Below the pieces are notes generated by a model that did no database searches, was not told the DNA's origin, and was given only the letters and a program-made list of their open reading frames with translations. A DNA stretch of 27,543 nucleotides. Origin: a virus. The stretch covers positions 1-27,543 of IMG/VR virus record IMGVR_UViG_3300025085_000144; one strand, given 5' to 3'. This document shows positions 1 to 7,279 of this stretch, in pieces. Position 1 is the first letter of the stretch. Each line of letters starts with the position of its first letter. A program made the translations under genes and the position numbers.

Positions 1-110
1 TGTTCATACACATCTAAATCTACGTTTATTTTTCCTTGATGTAGTGAGGCTAATGAATCTTTAAATGATTCAATCCCCATAAATTCTGCTATTAGTTTGT
101 TGTCTTTCAT
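1..110 (-). CDS. Small phage protein, C-terminus cut by window edge
   Basis: This is the last visible gene of the leftward cluster and it runs off the left edge; about 36 residues are visible, beginning MKDNKLIAEFMGIESFKDSL. I do not recognise a function. An in-frame ATG also exists at 134, inside the preceding gene. I prefer the start at 110 because it falls 4 nt after that gene's stop and gives the MKDNKLIAEFMG opening that I associate, from memory only, with small proteins of Bacteroidetes phages. There is no ribozyme at this junction. Confidence 0.6.
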   Translation of the reverse strand, partial: MKDNKLIAEFMGIESFKDSLASLHQGKINVDLDVYE

Positions 111-114
111 AATC

Positions 115-264
115 TTATTTATTATTAAATTCATATCTGTAAAAATCTGCAACATCTATTAATTTTTGTATTAAATCATTTTTGCTATAATATATTAATT
201 CTGATGCATCATATTCATCTGTAAGTAATCGTTCTAATTCTGTTATTATTTCTGTTCGTTTCAT
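115..264 (-). CDS. Small hypothetical protein (49 aa)
   Basis: A leftward reading frame starts ATG AAA CGA ACA and ends TAA, giving 49 mostly charged, probably helical residues (MKRTEIITELERLL... ending YRYEFNNK). It lies between two other small leftward genes with 11 nt before it and 4 nt after it, as expected in a polycistronic phage transcript. No domain is recognised. Confidence 0.6.
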   Translation of the reverse strand: MKRTEIITELERLLTDEYDASELIYYSKNDLIQKLIDVADFYRYEFNNK

Positions 265-275
265 AGTTGGTTTGT

Positions 276-458
276 TTATAATGGTAATTTATATCCTTTT
301 TCTTGCAGGCTGTCATACTTATTTTGATTTTTAATGTATTCTTCTCGATAAAGCCTCTCGTATGATTTTGTCATACTTGTTTGGTATCTTAATTGTTTTT
401 TAAGATGATATAATTCTATTCTTAATTCCTTTATCAATTTGTCTTTAGTTTCGGTCAT
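276..458 (-). CDS. Small charged helical protein (60 aa)
   Basis: The 60-residue product is rich in Lys, Glu, Tyr and Arg, with a heptad-like N-terminal half (KDKLIKELRIELYHLKKQLR) that suggests a short coiled coil. Function is unknown. It follows the 469-747 gene after 10 nt with no hammerhead ribozyme between them, so the two would stay on one processed mRNA. Confidence 0.65.
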   Translation of the reverse strand: MTETKDKLIKELRIELYHLKKQLRYQTSMTKSYERLYREEYIKNQNKYDSLQEKGYKLPL

Positions 459-468
459 AGTTTCTAAT

Positions 469-747
469 TTAGTATGCTCTCGAAGGAAGCATTTGGTTTA
501 AATCATAATCTTCTCCCAGCTCTTGCGAGAAGTATCTGCTGAGGTCATCTGCTAACTTCGTTAGCTCAGGATTGCCATACCAATCTTTGATAGTACAATC
601 GTTCTGAACACTACCTAGCATCCCACCACCAAGATAGTTGCAGTATGCAGTCATCTTTTGGTCTTTGTAGCCATAAGGCGTTAAACTAATTTCAACCCCA
701 CCACCTCGTGATGTGATTCGTTCTCTTAAGATTTCAAATTGTTTCAT
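469..747 (-). CDS. Hypothetical early phage protein (92 aa)
   Basis: A 92-residue protein with a glycine-rich stretch near residue 40 (NYLGGGMLGSV) and an acidic C-terminal third. I recognise no family. The start is fixed by context: the ATG lies exactly 21 nt downstream of the predicted cleavage site of the ribozyme at 762-828, the same spacing as at three other genes in this cluster. The gene would be the first cistron of the last processed RNA in the window. Confidence 0.7.
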   Translation of the reverse strand: MKQFEILRERITSRGGGVEISLTPYGYKDQKMTAYCNYLGGGMLGSVQNDCTIKDWYGNPELTKLADDLSRYFSQELGEDYDLNQMLPSRAY

Positions 748-761
748 AATATATAATTTTT

Positions 762-828
762 AGATTAAGACAGGTATGCAATTAGACTGCAAACCTGTTT
801 CGACCTGTGAGGTCTCGTCAGTTAATCT
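762..828 (-). ncRNA. Type I hammerhead ribozyme 1 (AGATTAA class)
   Basis: On the minus strand, in order: stem I AGATTAA; core CTGACGA (fits CUGANGA); stem II GACC-TCACA-GGTC; GAAA; a long stem III (5 bp, one T-T mismatch, 4 bp, 7-nt loop); TC; and TTAATCT closing stem I. Cleavage is predicted between C769 and T768. The upstream gene's TAA stop (822-824) is inside stem I. Cleavage leaves a 21-nt leader for the 469-747 gene. This copy has the longest stem III and the only C at the variable core position. Confidence 0.93.
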
Positions 829-1271
829 TCGTACTCATAGCCTTGCAATTCTAAAGCATACTCCATATCTTCACGTAGTTTCTCGTACACATCATCCCAA
901 AGACCAGCCATAGCCTCATCAATCCAGTCGTAGTCTAGGTCATCAATGTAAATATGGATATCATCTTTGTCACACTCTCTTATAAATTGCTCTAGCCTTT
1001 CCCCTAAATCGCTGTCGTAGTAGTGTACATCCTCCTCAATATTGTATCTGTCATAAGGTGGAACGATAGCTACCCATAACTCATAGCCATCAGCTGTCGT
1101 TTGAGAGTAGATTGCAAAGTCTGGCATCCCCCCCCAGCGATTAGCTATCTTAAAATCAAAGTGCAATTTAATGTTGTTGACCTGTACTTCAGTTCCATTG
1201 TACCACTCCCCAATACCTGTCTTTTCTAGTTTTTCAGTAATTAGTTCTTCAGTTAATTTTTTGATAATCAT
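822..1271 (-). CDS. Acidic hypothetical protein (149 aa)
   Basis: This is the largest product of the leftward cluster. It is strongly acidic, with many Asp, Glu, Tyr and Trp residues in the C-terminal half (DDIHIYIDDLDYDWIDEAMA), a composition seen in some phage inhibitors and DNA-mimic proteins, but I cannot assign a function. Ribozymes flank both sides, so processing would release it as a monocistronic RNA of about 534 nt. The start lies 31 nt downstream of the cleavage site of ribozyme 2, and the stop codon (GAT TAA) sits in stem I of ribozyme 1. Confidence 0.75.
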   Translation of the reverse strand: MIIKKLTEELITEKLEKTGIGEWYNGTEVQVNNIKLHFDFKIANRWGGMPDFAIYSQTTADGYELWVAIVPPYDRYNIEEDVHYYDSDLGERLEQFIRECDKDDIHIYIDDLDYDWIDEAMAGLWDDVYEKLREDMEYALELQGYEYED

Positions 1272-1296
1272 AATTAATTTTTTATGTCTTTCGACT

Positions 1297-1352
1297 GGTT
1301 AAGAGCCAGTATAAATACTGGCTTTCGGATAATAAATCCTCATCAGTTAACC
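1297..1352 (-). ncRNA. Type I hammerhead ribozyme 2 (GGTTAA class)
   Basis: Minus strand: stem I GGTTAA; core CTGATGA; stem II GGAT-TTATT-ATCC; GAAA; stem III GCCAGTA-TTTA-TACTGGC (7 bp); TC; TTAACC. Cleavage is predicted between C1303 and T1302. The upstream stop (1355-1357) lies 2 nt before stem I. The 31-nt leader left for the 822-1271 gene contains a small hairpin GTC-GAAA-GAC just after stem I, as in the other two copies of this class. Confidence 0.93.
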
Positions 1353-1354
1353 TG

Positions 1355-1546
1355 TTAACTTAGCAGTTCAAATTCATCTACAAAGTAGTGTACACCATTA
1401 AACTTGGTGCACCGGTTCTTCTCTAGTTCCTTACAGCATCTGATAAGTTCTGAGTAGGAGATACTATCTCTTGTTCTGTTCTGAGTATAAGCCATATCAA
1501 TCATAGCCATTGCCTCGCCTAGTGTTTTCGCTACATACATAATCAT
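1355..1546 (-). CDS. Hypothetical protein (63 aa)
   Basis: A 63-residue protein (MIMYVAKTLGEAMAMIDMAY...) with a short hydrophobic N-terminal part and one Cys pair (RCCKEL). No family is recognised. It starts 5 nt after the stop of the 1552-1710 gene with no ribozyme between them, so the two genes share one processed RNA of about 429 nt. A second in-frame ATG two codons downstream is an alternative start. Confidence 0.65.
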   Translation of the reverse strand: MIMYVAKTLGEAMAMIDMAYTQNRTRDSISYSELIRCCKELEKNRCTKFNGVHYFVDEFELLS

Positions 1547-1551
1547 AGGTT

Positions 1552-1710
1552 CTAATCGTTAGTGAAAATTTCATCCAGTAGATAGCCCTTCTTTTTCTCC
1601 AGTAAGGAGATGAAGTTATCTACGTGTCTCTCATCGTTAAATTGTCTAGTGATAATCCAATCTGTACCGAAGTCAGTCTTGAATTTTAGTGTTACCATAG
1701 TTGATTTCAT
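1552..1710 (-). CDS. Hypothetical protein (52 aa)
   Basis: The open frame extends upstream to an ATG at 1770, but that ATG lies inside the ribozyme core. The start at 1710 (MKSTMVTLKF) is chosen because it lies exactly 21 nt after the predicted cleavage site of ribozyme 3, as in the sister cassettes. The 52-residue product has a beta-like N-terminus and a charged helical C-terminus (FISLLEKKKGYLLDEIF). Function is unknown. Confidence 0.7.
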   Translation of the reverse strand: MKSTMVTLKFKTDFGTDWIITRQFNDERHVDNFISLLEKKKGYLLDEIFTND

Positions 1711-1724
1711 AATATTAAATTTTA

Positions 1725-1780
1725 AGATTAAGACTACCTCGAAAGGTAGTTTCGGTCTGTAAGACCTCATCAGTTAATCT
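1725..1780 (-). ncRNA. Type I hammerhead ribozyme 3 (AGATTAA class)
   Basis: Minus strand: stem I AGATTAA; core CTGATGA; stem II GGTC-TTACA-GACC; GAAA; stem III CTACCT-TTCG-AGGTAG, a 6-bp stem with a UUCG tetraloop; TC; TTAATCT. Cleavage is predicted between C1732 and T1731, giving a 21-nt leader for the gene starting at 1710. The TAA stop of the 1774-2016 gene is inside stem I. Confidence 0.94.
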
Positions 1781-2016
1781 CTTGTTGGATATAAGTCTTC
1801 CCATCCATCTACTGCATTATTGTTGTATACTCTTGGCTTTTTGTATGGCTCTTGTTCATAAGGCTGTACCCAAAAATCTTGACCAAACATTTCTCCCCAT
1901 CTTTCGATGCATTCCTTAGCCTCTTGCTGTGCCTCCGATGATGTTTTGAAGCCGTCTTGTTGTGTCACAATAAGACCAAATTCATCTACTGTTACTACTT
2001 TGTACATTGTTTTCAT
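1774..2016 (-). CDS. Hypothetical protein (80 aa)
   Basis: An 80-residue protein with an alternating beta-like N-terminus (MYKVVTVDEFGLIVTQQDGF) followed by a helix (SSEAQQEAKECIERWGEMFG) and a Pro/Tyr-rich tail. I do not recognise the family. The start at 2016 is supported by the invariant 21-nt distance from the cleavage site of ribozyme 4. The protein ends in Asp-stop, encoded by stem I of ribozyme 3. Ribozymes flank it on both sides, with a predicted monocistronic RNA of about 306 nt. Confidence 0.72.
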   Translation of the reverse strand: MKTMYKVVTVDEFGLIVTQQDGFKTSSEAQQEAKECIERWGEMFGQDFWVQPYEQEPYKKPRVYNNNAVDGWEDLYPTRD

Positions 2017-2030
2017 AATATTAAATTTTT

Positions 2031-2087
2031 AGATTAAGACGACTCCAATGGAGTCGTTTCGGTCTATCAGACCTCATCAGTTAATCT
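2031..2087 (-). ncRNA. Type I hammerhead ribozyme 4 (AGATTAA class)
   Basis: Minus strand: stem I AGATTAA; core CTGATGA; stem II GGTC-TGATA-GACC; GAAA; stem III CGACTCC-ATT-GGAGTCG (7 bp); TC; TTAATCT. Cleavage is predicted between C2038 and T2037, leaving a 21-nt leader for the 1774-2016 gene. The stop of the upstream mini-gene lies in stem I. Confidence 0.94.
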
Positions 2088-2191
2088 TTTATATTGGCTC
2101 TAAGTATGCTTATTATCCAAAGTTTTTCCTCATCACTTAGATTGCTATTACTTATAAAATTTATTGCATCCAATGTATTGCTATTAGTCAT
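2081..2191 (-). CDS. Mini-gene between two ribozymes (36 aa)
   Basis: The frame ATG ACT AAT AGC ... AAA GAT TAA encodes 36 residues, MTNSNTLDAINFISNSNLSD followed by EEKLWIISILRANIKD. The start lies exactly 21 nt from the cleavage site of ribozyme 5 and the stop is built into stem I of ribozyme 4, which strongly supports a real cistron despite its size. The processed RNA would be about 175 nt. Function is unknown. Confidence 0.68.
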   Translation of the reverse strand: MTNSNTLDAINFISNSNLSDEEKLWIISILRANIKD

Positions 2192-2205
2192 AATATATAA
2201 TTTTT

Positions 2206-2259
2206 AGATTAAGACTGCCTCTCGGCAGTTTCGTCCTTCCAGGACTCATCAGTTAATCT
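2206..2259 (-). ncRNA. Type I hammerhead ribozyme 5 (AGATTAA class)
   Basis: Minus strand: stem I AGATTAA; core CTGATGA; stem II GTCC-TGGAA-GGAC; GAAA; stem III CTGCC-GAGA-GGCAG with a GNRA loop; TC; TTAATCT. Cleavage is predicted between C2213 and T2212, giving a 21-nt leader for the 36-aa mini-gene. The upstream Cys-rich gene ends with GAT TAA inside stem I. Confidence 0.94.
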
Positions 2260-2369
2260 TCTTGGTCTTGGGTTTCTGTGTAAAATTCTGCAGGCTCGTG
2301 GCAACTGCCACATAAAGAATCACTAAGAAACGATGGTGCTGAACCACAGCAATTGCTATACTTTCTCAT
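2253..2369 (-). CDS. Cys-rich small protein (38 aa)
   Basis: The frame starts MRKYSNCCGSAPSFLSDS and continues LCGSCHEPAEFYTETQDQED. Two cysteine pairs (CC near residue 7 and CGSC near residue 20) plus a His suggest a small zinc knuckle or ribbon, which is inference. The stop is part of ribozyme 5 stem I. It is the last gene of a predicted 1181-nt multi-cistron RNA. Confidence 0.62.
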   Translation of the reverse strand: MRKYSNCCGSAPSFLSDSLCGSCHEPAEFYTETQDQED

Positions 2370-2375
2370 AATTTA

Positions 2376-2474
2376 TTATTTTATAAATTCTCTTACGATT
2401 GTTACTATACAAAATACTAGTACCATTACTAGCATTCCTGTCATACTGTAGTCTGTGAATTGTGTTATTGTCAT
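2376..2474 (-). CDS. Single-span membrane mini-protein (32 aa)
   Basis: Translation gives MTITQFTDYSMTG, then a hydrophobic run (MLVMVLVFCIVTIV), then REFIK and stop. One transmembrane helix with a basic C-terminus is evident. It lies 6 nt upstream of the Cys-rich gene. Such short membrane proteins are common in phage early regions but I cannot name a role. Confidence 0.55.
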   Translation of the reverse strand: MTITQFTDYSMTGMLVMVLVFCIVTIVREFIK

Positions 2475-2484
2475 CTTTATTTAT

Positions 2485-2637
2485 TTAGTTATTAATAGTG
2501 TAGTTATACTGCGTCTTTCTAGGTAGCATCCACCTTCCGTTATCTTGGATGTAAGGTCTTCCGTATTGGTCAAACTGGATGTCGTTAACCTGCTCTTCAT
2601 TGTAGAAGTACAGGGCTAATTTCTGTAATTTGTTCAT
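2485..2637 (-). CDS. Hypothetical protein (50 aa)
   Basis: The frame begins MNKLQKLALYFYNEEQVNDI and ends NYTINN-stop, 50 residues with many Gln, Asn and Tyr. No family is recognised. It is preceded by a 101-nt gap that holds the three-way-junction RNA element at 2686-2730. Confidence 0.58.
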   Translation of the reverse strand: MNKLQKLALYFYNEEQVNDIQFDQYGRPYIQDNGRWMLPRKTQYNYTINN

Positions 2638-2685
2638 TGTCAAAATGCCTGTGTTTATCGCAAAGGACTTTATGCTAGGTTAGAT

Positions 2686-2730
2686 GTGGTGGGCAATTTC
2701 GCTTTGCCTTTCGCTGTCTACAGCCACCAC
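2686..2730 (-). ncRNA. Hammerhead-like three-way junction lacking the catalytic strand
   Basis: Minus strand: GTGGTG; hairpin GCTG-TAGA-CAGC; GAAA; hairpin GGCAA-AGCGAAA-TTGCC; CACCAC. Three perfect helices meet with a GAAA linker between the second and third, as in a hammerhead, but the CUGANGA strand and the UH cleavage dinucleotide are missing. It occupies the same type of position as the active-looking ribozymes, in a gene junction. It could be a decayed or substituted ribozyme, another structured element, or chance. Confidence 0.5.
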
Positions 2731-2738
2731 TATTCTTG

Positions 2739-2882
2739 TTAATCAATATTTCCCCAAATGCCCTTCTGCTGTAGCTTTCCGAGTATATAACGCATCTCTG
2801 CTTGTGTATTACCTTCGAAGTCACTCTCGCAAAGTGATAGGGTATGAGCGATTATTTCTAGTTGGTGTTTCGTGAATTTCAT
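2739..2882 (-). CDS. Hypothetical protein (47 aa)
   Basis: The frame begins MKFTKHQLEIIAHTLSLCES and ends with KGIWGNID-stop. It is probably helical. The start is 1 nt after the stop of the preceding gene (TAAGATG), which is tight translational coupling. The rightward open frame over the same bases (2684-2875) has no such context and is taken as a shadow. Confidence 0.6.
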   Translation of the reverse strand: MKFTKHQLEIIAHTLSLCESDFEGNTQAEMRYILGKLQQKGIWGNID

Positions 2883-2883
2883 C

Positions 2884-3036
2884 TTATTGTGGTTTTATTG
2901 AGTAAATTTCTAATACTTCATATCCCTGTTCTTCAAGGATTTCTTTAATTTCGACTTCATCATCTGTTGGTAGGTCATACATATTCATAGAATATGCACC
3001 ACCTACAGCATTGAATATGCATTGATAATACTTCAT
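2884..3036 (-). CDS. Hypothetical protein (50 aa)
   Basis: A 50-residue protein starting MKYYQCIFNAVGGAYSMNMY, with an acidic helical middle (DDEVEIKEILEEQGYEVLEI). Its ATG overlaps the TGA of the 3033-3362 gene (ATGA), and the next gene starts 1 nt after its stop. Function is unknown. Confidence 0.62.
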   Translation of the reverse strand: MKYYQCIFNAVGGAYSMNMYDLPTDDEVEIKEILEEQGYEVLEIYSIKPQ

Positions 3037-3362
3037 AGCTCTATCTCGTTATTTGAAAGCCCTTGAATTAGAGCCTTTCGGTTAGTACCATCAGCTCTGT
3101 TCCAGGCTGTTTTAAAGTCTCCAATGCATACGGCTTGCATAAAGCCCCCCATACCATCCATAAGGCGTTTCTTTTTAGCTGTTCTTACATCATGCTCCCA
3201 ATCACCTCTCATATCTTCGTCTAGCATCTGCATGGCATTACTACGGCACACCCCATTTTCAGAGTAGTTAGCGATTGCTACTAGCATCGTGTAGTTAGAG
3301 TAATTAACTCCTTCCGGTAGGTATCCCTTTGGATATCCTGATTTCAATTCAAATTTGTTCAT
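3033..3362 (-). CDS. Hypothetical early phage protein (109 aa)
   Basis: The 109-residue product (MNKFELKSGYPKGYLPEGVN...) has a basic central patch (RTAKKKRLMDGMGGFM). I do not recognise the family. The start lies exactly 31 nt from the cleavage site of ribozyme 6. It opens a predicted 1181-nt RNA carrying six small genes, the longest processed piece in the array, with ribozymes only at its two ends. Confidence 0.72.
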   Translation of the reverse strand: MNKFELKSGYPKGYLPEGVNYSNYTMLVAIANYSENGVCRSNAMQMLDEDMRGDWEHDVRTAKKKRLMDGMGGFMQAVCIGDFKTAWNRADGTNRKALIQGLSNNEIEL

Positions 3363-3387
3363 AATAATTAATTTGTGGCTTTCGCCT

Positions 3388-3437
3388 GGTTAAGAGGTCT
3401 CACGACCTTTCGACTATTGAAGTCTCATCAGTTAACC
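3388..3437 (-). ncRNA. Type I hammerhead ribozyme 6 (GGTTAA class)
   Basis: Minus strand: stem I GGTTAA; core CTGATGA; stem II GACT-TCAAT-AGTC; GAAA; stem III GGTC-GTGA-GACC, a 4-bp stem with a GNRA loop; TC; TTAACC. Cleavage is predicted between C3394 and T3393. The 31-nt leader contains GGC-GAAA-GCC, a compensatory variant of GTC-GAAA-GAC in ribozymes 2 and 7. The upstream TAG stop (3437-3439) overlaps the first base of stem I. Confidence 0.93.
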
Positions 3438-3757
3438 TAGATATCATAAACACAGCCCACTGCTGAATTTTGCCACTCGAAGTATAGCCCATGCTTCTCC
3501 AGTGTTTTCTGTAGCTTCTCACTACCCCAGTACATTTCAGTATCGTAGTAATCTACCCACTGCTCTGCTTCGCACTCTTCTGCTTTTATCCAAAAATATC
3601 CTCTGTAATCTTCGTATCCTCTCTTGTTCTGATACCATATATCTATTGGGCAACCAAGTTTTTTTAACTCGATAAACGCCTTGATTGACTCCGGAGTCAT
3701 GTGGTTGATTTCTTCTTTACTAAATTCGTTGTTGAACATTTTTCTTGTGTATTGCAT
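3437..3757 (-). CDS. Hypothetical protein (106 aa)
   Basis: A 106-residue Trp/Tyr-rich acidic protein (for example IWYQNKRGYEDYRGYFWIKA near the middle). No family is recognised. Ribozymes of the same class flank it on both sides, and the predicted RNA is about 395 nt. The start is 31 nt from the cleavage site of ribozyme 7. Confidence 0.73.
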   Translation of the reverse strand: MQYTRKMFNNEFSKEEINHMTPESIKAFIELKKLGCPIDIWYQNKRGYEDYRGYFWIKAEECEAEQWVDYYDTEMYWGSEKLQKTLEKHGLYFEWQNSAVGCVYDI

Positions 3758-3782
3758 AATATTTAATTTGTGTCTTTCGACT

Positions 3783-3836
3783 GGTTAAGACCACCAATAA
3801 AGGTGGTTTCGACTATTGAAGTCTCATCAGTTAACC
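3783..3836 (-). ncRNA. Type I hammerhead ribozyme 7 (GGTTAA class)
   Basis: Minus strand: stem I GGTTAA; core CTGATGA; stem II GACT-TCAAT-AGTC, identical to ribozyme 6; GAAA; stem III CCACC-TTTATT-GGTGG; TC; TTAACC. Cleavage is predicted between C3789 and T3788, leaving a 31-nt leader with the GTC-GAAA-GAC hairpin. It lies 4 nt after the stop of the first gene of the cluster. Confidence 0.93.
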
Positions 3837-3840
3837 TAAA

Positions 3841-4026
3841 TTATTTTTTTGATTTAACGTATTCATTAATTAAAACATTACATTGAGAATCATTTAACGG
3901 AAAAATTAATTTAAATATATTTCTTATTGCTTTTCTTGTTACTTTAACATTTGATTCTTTTAATTCGATAACAATTCTTTCAATGTTATCTTGATAAATT
4001 TCGTATTGTTTTGCTGATAATTCCAT
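3841..4026 (-). CDS. First gene of the leftward cluster (61 aa)
   Basis: A 61-residue, Lys/Ile-rich, probably all-helical protein (MELSAKQYEIYQDNIERIVI...) ending VKSKK. Function is unknown. It is the first recognisable gene after the divergence region and has no ribozyme upstream, so its mRNA would keep the original transcript 5' end and gain its 3' end by cleavage at ribozyme 7. Confidence 0.65.
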   Translation of the reverse strand: MELSAKQYEIYQDNIERIVIELKESNVKVTRKAIRNIFKLIFPLNDSQCNVLINEYVKSKK

Positions 4027-4051
4027 AATTTATTGATTTTTAAAAGTTAGC

Positions 4052-4099
4052 TACCGGTACTAGTATTGCTCTAGCTAGCCTGTCGTTCAGATACCGGTA
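4052..4099. repeat. Pair of TACCGGTA palindromes 40 bp apart
   Basis: The perfect 8-bp palindrome TACCGGTA occurs at 4052-4059 and 4092-4099, exactly 40 bp start to start, just upstream of the first leftward gene. It may be a paired operator; in RNA the two copies could also pair and enclose a 32-nt insert. Confidence 0.5.
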
Positions 4100-4232
4100 A
4101 TTTGTTTGTTGCTTCACCAATAGCCCTTGAATTTTCGCCCTACCTACAGGTAGTTAAATACTTGGTTATCATAATGGCTCCCATAAGGTCTTCAGTACTA
4201 CTATTGTTCACACAACTTACGCCACAACTCGT

Positions 4233-4654: not shown

Positions 4655-4754
4655 CTGCACCCCCCCTGTCAATATAATTTTGCGTTTCCGTAGAGGTCAC
4701 GTGTGCGTGTGATGGCATAGAGCCCAAATACTACATATATCTAAAAAAAAATTG

Positions 4755-4771
4755 TATCTTTACCAAAAATA
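4755..4771. promoter_or_regulatory. Opposed promoter-like -7 elements
   Basis: Plus strand TATCTTTA (4755-4762, one mismatch to the Bacteroidetes -7 consensus TAnnTTTG) would start the gene at 4778 with a short leader. Minus strand TATTTTTG (4771 down to 4764, full match) points toward the leftward cluster and would give a leader of roughly 730 nt. The elements are back to back, one base apart, like those at 7938-7956. No clear -33 TTG is seen. Confidence 0.4.
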
Positions 4772-4777
4772 TACGAT

Positions 4778-4960
4778 ATGGATTTTGGAGATTACAGAAT
4801 AAAAAATGGAAGGTTAATTAACAACGCTCCTGATTTGGAGAGTGGTATAAGTAAAGCCGCACGTTTAAGACAAGAGGTTAAGCGTGGTAAACAAGTTAGA
4901 ATTATAGCAGAGGCTAATGAGTTAGCTAATGCCAACATAAATTTATTCAAGAAACTATAG
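4778..4960 (+). CDS. Small phage protein (60 aa)
   Basis: The 60-residue product (MDFGDYRIKNGRLINNAPDL...) is basic and helical in its second half (AARLRQEVKRGKQVRIIAEA). No family is recognised. It has its own promoter-like element 16 nt upstream and a rho-independent terminator downstream, so it looks like a single-gene early unit. Confidence 0.65.
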   Translation: MDFGDYRIKNGRLINNAPDLESGISKAARLRQEVKRGKQVRIIAEANELANANINLFKKL

Positions 4961-5079: not shown

Positions 5080-5232
5080 TTTTAATAGTTAACTAACTGA
5101 TTATCAAGACTAGTGTTATAAATGTTATAAATAAAACCAAAACGTCAAAAATTTTTACATCAATAGTAATACTAAAATATATATATATATAGAGCGACCT
5201 AACTTCGACATGTTATATATAAAATTATTTAC

Positions 5233-5240
5233 TATATTTG
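5233..5240 (+). promoter_or_regulatory. Bacteroidetes-type -7 element for groEL
   Basis: TATATTTG matches TAnnTTTG perfectly and lies 26 nt before the groEL ATG, giving a leader of roughly 18-20 nt. I see no strong -33 TTG at the expected place; the tandem repeats and AT run upstream may take part in activation. Confidence 0.6.
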
Positions 5241-5265
5241 CATTGAAATTAAATACACTAAAATT

Positions 5266-6867
5266 ATGAATCAAGGATTTTCTCCAAAGGAGCTTCGCTT
5301 CGGAAATGATGGAAGGGATAAATTAATCTCAGGCATCACTCAATTATCAAATGCAGTTAAGAGTACATTAGGACCACAGGGTAACACAGTACTTATAGAA
5401 TCACAGGAACATATAGGAGGTATTACTGTCACCAAGGATGGTGTTACGGTTGCTAAGTCTATTAGTTTATTAGACCCAGTCGAGAACCTTGCGGTTCGTA
5501 TGATGAAGGAGGCTGCTGACAAGACAGCTACAGCAGCTGGTGATGGTACGACTACTGCGATAGTATTAACGGAAGCATTAGTAAAGAAGGGAACGGAACT
5601 TATTACAGACAATGTAAATAGGACCGAGGTATTGCGTAGCATGAATGAGCTAACGAAAGATATCATAAAGGGTTTAAAGCAGGAATCTAAAAAATTAAGC
5701 CAGCGAAAGATGAAGGACGTTGCTATTATCTCTGCCAACAATGACAAGGAGTTAGGTAGTACGATAGCGGATGTTTATAAGGCTGTTGGTAAAGATGGTG
5801 TTGTTACTGTGGAGAAGGCACAGAGCAGCGAGACGTATTATGAGACCACAAAAGGAATCAAGGTAGACAGGGGATATTCTAGTCCTTTGTTTATAAACGA
5901 CCAGAAGAAAGATGAGTGTGTACTAGAGGATGTTCATATTCTGGTATCTGATGCTGAGATAAGTAATATACTTCAGATTGAGGGTGTATTAAAACCAATT
6001 ATCCAGCAGAACAAGAGGTTACTTATTATAGCACCTACGACAACCAATGTTATAAACACGTTGGCTGCCAATGTGATGAAGAACAATTTAAAGATATGTA
6101 ACATAGCACCTCCGAACTTTGGTTACAAGCAGCATGAGCTTATGCAGGATATAGCCTATACGGTTGGAGCTACATATTTTTCTGAAAAGACAGGGGATGA
6201 CCTCAGCATTATAAATGCAGAAGACTTGGGTCACGCTGCCAAGGTGATAGTTGGACGTGGCTCAACAGTCATCCTGAAGGATGATTCTTCGGACCAGGAT
6301 GCTATAGATGGAAGGGTAGCTGAGTTAAAGGGTGCTCATGAGATAGCTAAGACAAAAACTGAGCGTGATTTTATAATGTCAAGGATAGCATCACTAACAG
6401 GAGGTATTGGTGTAATATACGTAGGAGGAAATACGGACCTAGAGCAGAAGGAATTGTATGACAGAGTAGATGATGCTGTATGTGCGGTACGCTCGGCACT
6501 AGAGGAGGGCATACTTCCTGGTGGTGGCATGGCTCTGTATCAGTTGGGTTATGAAATTTGTGAGCCTTGCTCACCCACAGCTGATGAGAAGATTGCAGCT
6601 AATATTATGAAGTATGCATTAGAGTCTCCTGCTAGACAGATTATAGCTAACGGAGGTAAAGACTTTAGTAAGATATATCCTAAGCCACCAATTGTAGGTG
6701 AGGGTTATGATTTAAAAAACGACAAGCATGGCAACTTAATTAATATGGGTGTAATAGACCCATTAAAAGTTACAAGAACAGCTCTACAGAATGCAGTATC
6801 TGTAGCTACAACGATATTATCTACTAATGCTATTGTAACGATGGCACGTTCATACGAAACTAAATAG
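5266..6867 (+). CDS. groEL: Phage-encoded chaperonin GroEL (Hsp60)
   Basis: A full-length group I chaperonin of 533 aa (about 548 in E. coli). It forms the ATP-driven barrel that folds proteins in the cytoplasm. Visible landmarks are TLGPQG (residues 34-39), TKDGVT (56-61), the ATP-binding GDGTTTA (92-98), an apical domain from about 190 to 375, RVDDA with the conserved catalytic Asp near residue 400, and PGGG near 418. The C-terminus ends SYETK and lacks the GGM-repeat tail, as in some divergent chaperonins. A Cys-rich gene and groES follow at once, an order opposite to the usual bacterial groES-groEL. A phage copy probably folds virion proteins such as the capsid; that role is inference. 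It has its own promoter at 5233. Confidence 0.95.
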   Translation: MNQGFSPKELRFGNDGRDKLISGITQLSNAVKSTLGPQGNTVLIESQEHIGGITVTKDGVTVAKSISLLDPVENLAVRMMKEAADKTATAAGDGTTTAIVLTEALVKKGTELITDNVNRTEVLRSMNELTKDIIKGLKQESKKLSQRKMKDVAIISANNDKELGSTIADVYKAVGKDGVVTVEKAQSSETYYETTKGIKVDRGYSSPLFINDQKKDECVLEDVHILVSDAEISNILQIEGVLKPIIQQNKRLLIIAPTTTNVINTLAANVMKNNLKICNIAPPNFGYKQHELMQDIAYTVGATYFSEKTGDDLSIINAEDLGHAAKVIVGRGSTVILKDDSSDQDAIDGRVAELKGAHEIAKTKTERDFIMSRIASLTGGIGVIYVGGNTDLEQKELYDRVDDAVCAVRSALEEGILPGGGMALYQLGYEICEPCSPTADEKIAANIMKYALESPARQIIANGGKDFSKIYPKPPIVGEGYDLKNDKHGNLINMGVIDPLKVTRTALQNAVSVATTILSTNAIVTMARSYETK

Positions 6868-6869
6868 AT

Positions 6870-7025
6870 ATGAATTGTCCAAATTGTAAAGCTCAGTTAA
6901 TATGGGGAGGTGACCATAGTTACGAAGATTATGGTAATGAAGAGGAAGAAGGAATTGTAAGCAACTATAGTTGTTCTACGGATAATTGTACAACAGACTT
7001 AATTTTATTATATCAAAGAATATGA
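6870..7025 (+). CDS. Zinc-ribbon-like small protein between groEL and groES (51 aa)
   Basis: The frame MNCPNCKAQLIWGGDHSYED continues with an acidic stretch and then CSTDNC. The CPNC and CxxxxC pairs form a likely zinc ribbon with about 30 residues between them. It starts 2 nt after groEL and its TGA overlaps the groES ATG (ATGA), so the three genes are translationally linked. I recall similar MNCPNC mini-proteins from marine phages, but no function is known to me. Confidence 0.7.
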   Translation: MNCPNCKAQLIWGGDHSYEDYGNEEEEGIVSNYSCSTDNCTTDLILLYQRI

Positions 7026-7279
7026 AGCTAATAGGAAAAAACATTTTAATAGATGTAATCAATGAGGAGATTAAAACCTCATCAGGATTATTATTATCTT
7101 CTGAGGATACATCTCAGTTTAGATATAGTAAAGGAAAAGTAGTTGAGCCAGGAACTGATGTTGATGTTATAAGTAAGGAAGATGTTATCTACTATGACAA
7201 ACGTCAGGGATACACAATGCTTATAGAGAACAAAAAATTTACGGTTATTCAAGAGAGAGATGTTGTGGTTGTTTTATGA
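7022..7279 (+). CDS. groES: Phage-encoded co-chaperonin GroES (Hsp10)
   Basis: An 85-aa protein (about 97 in E. coli GroES) that would cap the GroEL ring. IGKNILIDVINEE aligns with the GroES N-terminal strand, EIKTSSGLLLSSEDTSQFRY with the mobile loop that contacts GroEL, and SKGKVVEPG with the strand after it. The C-terminal FTVIQERDVVVVL matches the usual ending with an acidic residue before a hydrophobic tail. The open frame extends upstream, but ATG 7022 is chosen because MKLIGKNILI is the natural N-terminus and it overlaps the preceding stop. Pairing with the adjacent groEL supports the call despite low similarity. Confidence 0.85.
   Translation: MKLIGKNILIDVINEEIKTSSGLLLSSEDTSQFRYSKGKVVEPGTDVDVISKEDVIYYDKRQGYTMLIENKKFTVIQERDVVVVL

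Follow-up and report, generated by a model that had tools for sequence, protein, structure and literature searches.

An array of seven type I hammerhead ribozymes at gene junctions of a phage operon, with relatives in many phages

Clustered hammerhead ribozymes flanking single genes or short blocks of genes in prophages were described by Perreault et al. in 2011, who observed that tandem arrays are cleaved in vitro and that a triple array is cleaved in E. coli, and who had already proposed the processing of polycistronic RNA as their role (PMC3088659). The role of prokaryotic hammerheads was still regarded as open in a 2017 review (PMC6155905), and a 2023 paper gives the biological reason for ribozyme clustering near phage genes as not known (PMC10085705). 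The arrays described here bear on this question. The linear fragment IMGVR_UViG_3300025085_000144, which we used in its entirety (27,543 bases; hereafter the window) and which is probably from an uncultured phage with a host in the phylum Bacteroidota, carries seven complete type I hammerheads on the minus strand between positions 762 and 3837, one per gene boundary at seven boundaries of a leftward gene cluster. An earlier note on this DNA had predicted these seven elements, and had also supposed that only single phage hammerheads were known and that the dicing of an operon was new; this last supposition has to be given up, since clusters, array cleavage and the processing idea are all present in the 2011 paper.

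The clusters reported by Perreault et al. in Agrobacterium tumefaciens, Azorhizobium caulinodans and Clostridium scindens likewise contain several hammerheads flanking phage genes, but the largest arrangement named there is a triple, whereas the present arrays have seven to nine copies of one type in one cluster. They also differ in having a fixed module, with a stop codon within or next to stem I and an ATG about 22 nucleotides (nt) past the cut, that recurs in well over a hundred records, and in belonging to phages related to Flavobacterium and Cellulophaga phages. It is the scale, the fixed module, the cultured examples and the interchange with other elements that are new relative to the 2011 work. 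In open-access full texts, a collection that most subscription journals lie outside, we found no paper describing the present hammerhead family and no test of the 2011 processing idea in phage infection.

A covariance model (R2) trained on 40 sequences of other phages, with the window and its near relative L014 excluded, gives exactly seven matches in the window with E-values of 6.5e-13 to 1.5e-10; the next match has an E-value of 0.53, no further hammerhead copies were found in the window, and mononucleotide-shuffled versions of these loci (1.17 Mb) gave no hammerhead. Each copy has a CTGA(T/C)GA core, a 13-nt stem II starting with a G-C pair, GAAA, stem III, a U and C17, as had been claimed, and all seven adopt the hammerhead secondary structure when folded by minimum energy (z-scores -1.2 to -4.3). 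Two features absent from the earlier note are also common to all seven, a stem I of 6–7 bp and an upstream stop codon situated in the 5' strand of stem I or in the bases directly before it. The order CUGANGA ... GAAA ... UH with the correct three-way connectivity places every copy in type I, and the cleavage triplet is GUC in five copies and CUC in the two with cores at 3431 and 1346, in agreement with the NUH rule. In loop II a U and an A are conserved, as is an A beside stem I; at most these hint at a possible tertiary contact between loop II and stem I. The ribozyme identity of the seven elements is nearly certain. By analogy with known hammerhead chemistry, cleavage would occur 3' of C17 to give a 2',3'-cyclic phosphate and a 5'-OH. 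The recomputed cut positions (Table 1) are identical to those predicted earlier at all seven sites, and the predicted fragments between them, of 395, 1181, 175, 306, 429 and 534 nt, are reproduced. A 3-bp GAAA hairpin (GUC/GAC, GGC/GCC or GCC/GGC) is located just 3' of stem I in hammerheads 1, 2 and 6 and in six copies from relatives, a position that would be near the new 5' end after cleavage.

All window copies fall below the Rfam cut-offs. RAGATH-1-hammerhead (RF03152) resembles them in being of type I with an open stem I, a CUGAUGAG core, a short stem II and a similar stem III, and four of the window copies are the best matches to this model at 26 to 34.8 bits, below its gathering score of 56.3; however, the model's conserved 5' hairpin is not convincingly matched by the window copies, and their stem I is longer. 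Hammerhead_1 (RF00163) has the fold and core in common with the window copies, of which the best reaches 19.3 bits at the E-value limit used, against a score of 34 that is a library threshold and not a structural property; the low scores are perhaps due to the short open stem I and the small loops. Four relatives (L150, L171, L172 and L174) pass the Hammerhead_1 gathering score (35.9 versus 34). The covariance search of the window and related phages envisaged in the earlier note thus succeeds for seven of seven copies with the outside model and for these four relatives with Rfam, but not for the window copies with Rfam. As the majority of checked copies fall under the Rfam cut-offs, phage hammerheads are probably more abundant than currently estimated.

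Relatives were collected with a search pattern in which just the core and the inner portion of stem I were fixed. It matched more than 119 IMG/VR stretches, and the abundance is a lower bound. Among the 136 distinct matches listed, which were not selected for pairing of stems II or III, 130 form a stem III of at least 4 bp and 108 a stem II of this length, and most of the remainder are one-base register shifts; in a second, independent scan that added 81 elements, stem II is paired in 80 and stem III in all 81. In total, 276 distinct elements from 164 loci were compared. The core is invariant across 77 aligned sequences and 13 of the 16 base pairs vary on both sides, a count from sequences chosen for pairing and hence not independent, for which the unselected sets of 136 and 81 were made as a correction. 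H17 is C (260) or A (16) in every one of the 276 elements, under a detection rule that excludes G at this position and permits T, and N7 can be any base, as active hammerheads would have. Between the cultured Flavobacterium phages elemoA 7-9A and elemoC 14-1A, the 120 nt around the hammerhead show four differences, all in stem II, and these constitute two compensatory pairs (A-U to G-C and C-G to U-A). Similarly, stem III of the hammerhead after the 106-amino acid (aa) gene is ACGCUGUGAAGCGU in L171 but ACGCCGAGAGGCGU in L172. The covariation that had been claimed from the window copies is thus backed by hundreds of relatives, including sets not selected for pairing.

In whole-record searches, G006 (51 kb) proved to carry nine copies, G008 (83 kb) seven and G033 six. 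The seven copies of the window, like those of G006 and G008, are all in one orientation between co-directional genes. One copy each is present in the isolates Flavobacterium phage elemoA (MT497017), Cellulophaga phage phi19:3 (KC821608) and Pelagibacter phage HTVC019P (KC465901). A scan of genome contigs gave matches in five, all of them from metagenome-assembled genome (MAG) assemblies, and these therefore provide no firm hosts. At L133:5968-6075 the elemoA hammerhead is annotated as an opposite-strand hypothetical protein (QLF85237.1), which is probably a spurious gene call.

The position of the elements relative to the genes is uniform. A same-strand upstream gene ends nearby in 269 of the 276 elements, and in 245 of these 269 its stop codon is located between -16 and +13 nt relative to the first core base; among the first 139 elements analysed, the stop is a TAA within stem I in 38 and the TGA of the core in 22. 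For 269 elements there is an ATG downstream, at a median of 22 nt past the cut, and at 18–27 nt in 208 of them; in the window the distance is 21 nt for four copies and 31 nt for the three with the extra GAAA hairpin. The median gap between small genes in the same loci is 67 nt with a hammerhead and 5 nt without, indicating that the ribozyme occupies the whole intergenic space of a compact genome. The sequence, fold, covariation, orientation, position and wide conservation of these elements are established.

The best explanation of this arrangement, and one that we consider likely, is that the operon RNA is self-cleaved by its hammerheads into messenger RNAs (mRNAs) of one or a few genes with their own ends. 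All genes from 4026 to 115 are leftward, no intrinsic terminator in the form of a run of six or more Ts was found on the coding strand within 1-4100, and there is no excess of TANNTTTG boxes that might act as separate promoters in the cluster (two observed versus 1.8 expected by chance), so that one processed transcript is the best reading; and because the layout is common to hundreds of relatives, the long message of the cluster is probably cut. According to this proposal, the leftward small accessory genes would be transcribed as a single RNA, in which the hammerheads at the seven junctions would fold once made and cut the RNA into one-gene or few-gene mRNAs. From the position of the elements we infer that each downstream mRNA would gain a short 5'-OH leader of about 20–30 nt before the start codon, and that each upstream mRNA would end just past its own stop codon with the stem II and III hairpins and a 2',3'-cyclic phosphate. 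The likely benefit would be that each message has its own protected ends and stability, uncoupled from its neighbours. Given that the stop codon lies within stem I and the core or next to them, a ribosome terminating there should prevent folding, and cleavage would then probably take place in front of ribosomes or between them. The speculative parts of the proposal are the protection from decay and the gating of the cut by this last ribosome. The uniform layout, the arrays of up to nine and the cultured one-copy phages make the processing hypothesis directly testable.

Several observations weigh against self-processing of the operon RNA. Some orthologues of the flanking genes have no such element, and processing is thus not essential to those genes; blocks of several genes stay uncut, such as that at 2253-3362; and the hammerhead is absent from MW202828, the nearest phage by terminase. 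Cleavage could equally reduce expression, and cleavage in this hammerhead family is itself a prediction from sequence.

It is conceivable, although we think it unlikely, that the elements are instead regulatory switches in which cleavage raises or lowers expression of a neighbouring gene depending on upstream translation or a ligand. In most copies stem I or the core shares bases with the stop codon or lies right next to it, so termination must disturb folding, and the GAAA mini-hairpin following stem I in three window copies covaries (GUC/GAC, GGC/GCC), both of which are consistent with a switch. However, this mini-hairpin is present in only nine of the 276 copies, we saw no further conserved domain that might bind a ligand, most copies have minimal stems II and III, and the occurrence of arrays beside many different genes speaks for a generic role. 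That the elements are inert look-alikes or decayed hammerhead copies is hardly credible given the invariant core, the absence of G at H17, the covariation of the stems across hundreds of copies, and compensatory double changes between close phages.

Pairs of ribozymes could also release pieces that are re-ligated by the ribozyme or by RtcB into circular mRNAs, as in retrozymes. Stem I is nearly identical between copies, and the released 5' end can pair with the 3' ribozyme in 38 of 55 neighbour pairs; but in L008, L015, L106, L116 and L130 the stem I sequences of neighbours are mismatched even though each pairs internally, RtcB and RNA ligase are each encoded in one of 26 phage records, the same one in both cases (although a host RtcB is possible), and Perreault et al. 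sought circular or spliced products and found none (PMC3088659). With the mismatches within arrays and the near absence of phage RNA ligases, circularisation is unlikely as a general purpose, and we assign it a very low probability. We give slightly less credence still to the proposition that gene modules are exchanged at the ribozymes, with the conserved core and stem I supplying homology and the chimeras remaining active. The window and L147 have their genes in different orders, with genes retaining their hammerheads, and hammerhead 5 of the window combines a stem II identical to that of one L147 hammerhead with a stem III identical to that of another. However, stems II and III track the upstream and downstream genes weakly, and one-sided homology is found at 34 of 46 junctions with hammerheads (74%) and at 302 of 420 without (72%); as there is no enrichment over this control, module exchange was dropped.

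Self-processing may be one form of a broader arrangement, as comparison of orthologous junctions suggests. Nine window genes have homologues in G006 (locus L147), where their order is partly different and several retain a hammerhead at the corresponding side. Relatives of the 106-aa gene in L147 (92%) and L148 (45%) are followed by a hammerhead as in the window, and the L147 homologue of the 109-aa gene likewise has a hammerhead before it. Relatives of the 80-aa gene in other phages are mostly without a type I element and are flanked by other RNA elements or by none. Just upstream of one such orthologue is a type III hammerhead (L158:4916-4964; RF00008, 35.6 bits versus a cut-off of 48.5). At another, two transfer RNA (tRNA)-like elements with acceptor and T arms and without normal anticodon arms (L159:4896-4998 and 5227-5311) are located one directly before its ATG and the other between it and the next gene; the Rfam tmRNA model matches them with E-values of 9e-12 and 5e-7 in a 501-base search, below the gathering score. 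The presence of different cutting elements at the junctions of the same gene supports junction cleavage as a selected feature, although the cases are few and several orthologues have no element. We tentatively suggest, as a possibility somewhat less probable than not, a general RNA punctuation in which type I hammerheads, type III hammerheads and tRNA top-half mimics recognised by host RNase P and RNase Z are interchangeable, and in which the last ribosome gates the cut through the stop codon in or beside the core.

Other structured RNAs were seen in these loci. A tRNA top-half element consists of a 7-bp acceptor stem, a D-loop-like linker AATGGTTG(C/T)AA and a T-arm with a TTCGATT loop, with no anticodon arm; examples include L276:7397-7443, L277:11982-12028, L171:2438-2485 and L152:4412-4458. 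Both stems pair in 32 of 35 unselected AATGGTTG matches, with 27 different acceptor sequences. Many of the elements are at gene junctions, and no Rfam family above its cut-off covers these elements in the loci scanned. L301 has a type III hammerhead (4731-4787; Hammerhead_3, 44.4 bits, below 48.5) together with a tRNA top-half element and two tRNAs. In L171 (793-840), and also in L170 and L172, the 106-aa gene has upstream of it a structured RNA whose outer stem is TCGGTA/TACCGA and whose inner stem covaries (TAGG/CCTA versus CGAG/CTCG); this RNA has a weak match to DUF2693-FD RNA (18.2 bits).

Mitochondrial polycistronic RNA is punctuated by tRNAs, at which RNase P and RNase Z cut. There, as proposed here, RNA structure at the junctions sets the cuts that yield single-gene mRNAs, but the cutting is done by cellular enzymes whereas a hammerhead cuts itself, although related phages have tRNA-like elements at some junctions. 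Theta ribozymes of gut phages (PMC10879173) are likewise self-cleaving RNAs involved in RNA processing, in phages of Bacteroidota and others, but they have a hepatitis delta virus (HDV)-like fold and are positioned at tRNA 3' trailers and not at the junctions of protein genes.

Every assigned gene from 4026 down to the left contig end is on the minus strand (Table 1); the flanking genes are simple open reading frame calls, and Pfam and PHROGs searches of the operon proteins gave no usable function. Rightward genes from about 4778 onwards include GroEL, terminase and portal, named by resemblance to annotated relatives. The terminase has 77% identity to that of MW202828, an uncultured podovirus from Manatee Spring, and 45% to those of the Flavobacterium phages elemo. 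The region at 5266-7279 encodes a GroEL-like protein and an adjoining probable GroES-like protein, matching the MW202828 annotation.

Table 1. Hammerheads and genes of the leftward cluster in the window, in descending coordinates
Feature	Coordinates	Strand	Core (+ coordinate)	Predicted cut	Remarks
61-aa gene	3841..4026	-			First of leftward cluster; function not assigned
Hammerhead 1	3782..3837	-	3830	3789/3788	Between 61-aa and 106-aa genes; GAAA mini-hairpin after stem I
106-aa gene	3437..3757	-			Hammerhead on either side
Hammerhead 2	3387..3438	-	3431	3394/3393	CUC; upstream TAG overlaps start of stem I; GAAA mini-hairpin after stem I
109-aa gene	3033..3362	-			In predicted 1181-nt RNA
Five small genes (50, 47, 50, 32, 38 aa)	2253..3036	-			No hammerheads inside; with 109-aa gene, predicted 1181-nt RNA
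Hammerhead 3	2206..2259	-	2252	2213/2212	TAA of 38-aa gene inside stem I
36-aa gene	2081..2191	-			Between hammerheads 3 and 4; predicted 175-nt RNA
Hammerhead 4	2031..2087	-	2080	2038/2037	TAA of 36-aa gene inside stem I
80-aa gene	1774..2016	-			Between hammerheads 4 and 5; predicted 306-nt RNA
Hammerhead 5	1725..1780	-	1773	1732/1731	TAA of 80-aa gene inside stem I
Two small genes (52, 63 aa)	1355..1710	-			Between hammerheads 5 and 6; predicted 429-nt RNA
Hammerhead 6	1296..1353	-	1346	1303/1302	CUC; GAAA mini-hairpin after stem I
149-aa gene	822..1271	-			Between hammerheads 6 and 7; predicted 534-nt RNA
Hammerhead 7	762..828	-	821	769/768	TAA of 149-aa gene inside stem I; core CTGACGA
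92-aa gene	469..747	-			After hammerhead 7
Further cluster genes	276-458, 115-264	-			Cluster runs on to contig end

Three further observations concern hammerhead-bearing records other than the window. G021 (88 kb) encodes RtcB and an RNA ligase domain protein (32961-34061 and 3274-3777). In Pelagibacter phages (L135:2944-3012 and L142-L145) the hammerhead is upstream of a MarR-type regulator and an integrase, in a stretch mostly without annotated genes. In L149 (G008:72000-82750), a conserved sequence of about 30 nt, for example AAAAGTCAGGTGCAGACTATAACAGGC, follows each of the six hammerheads detected there.

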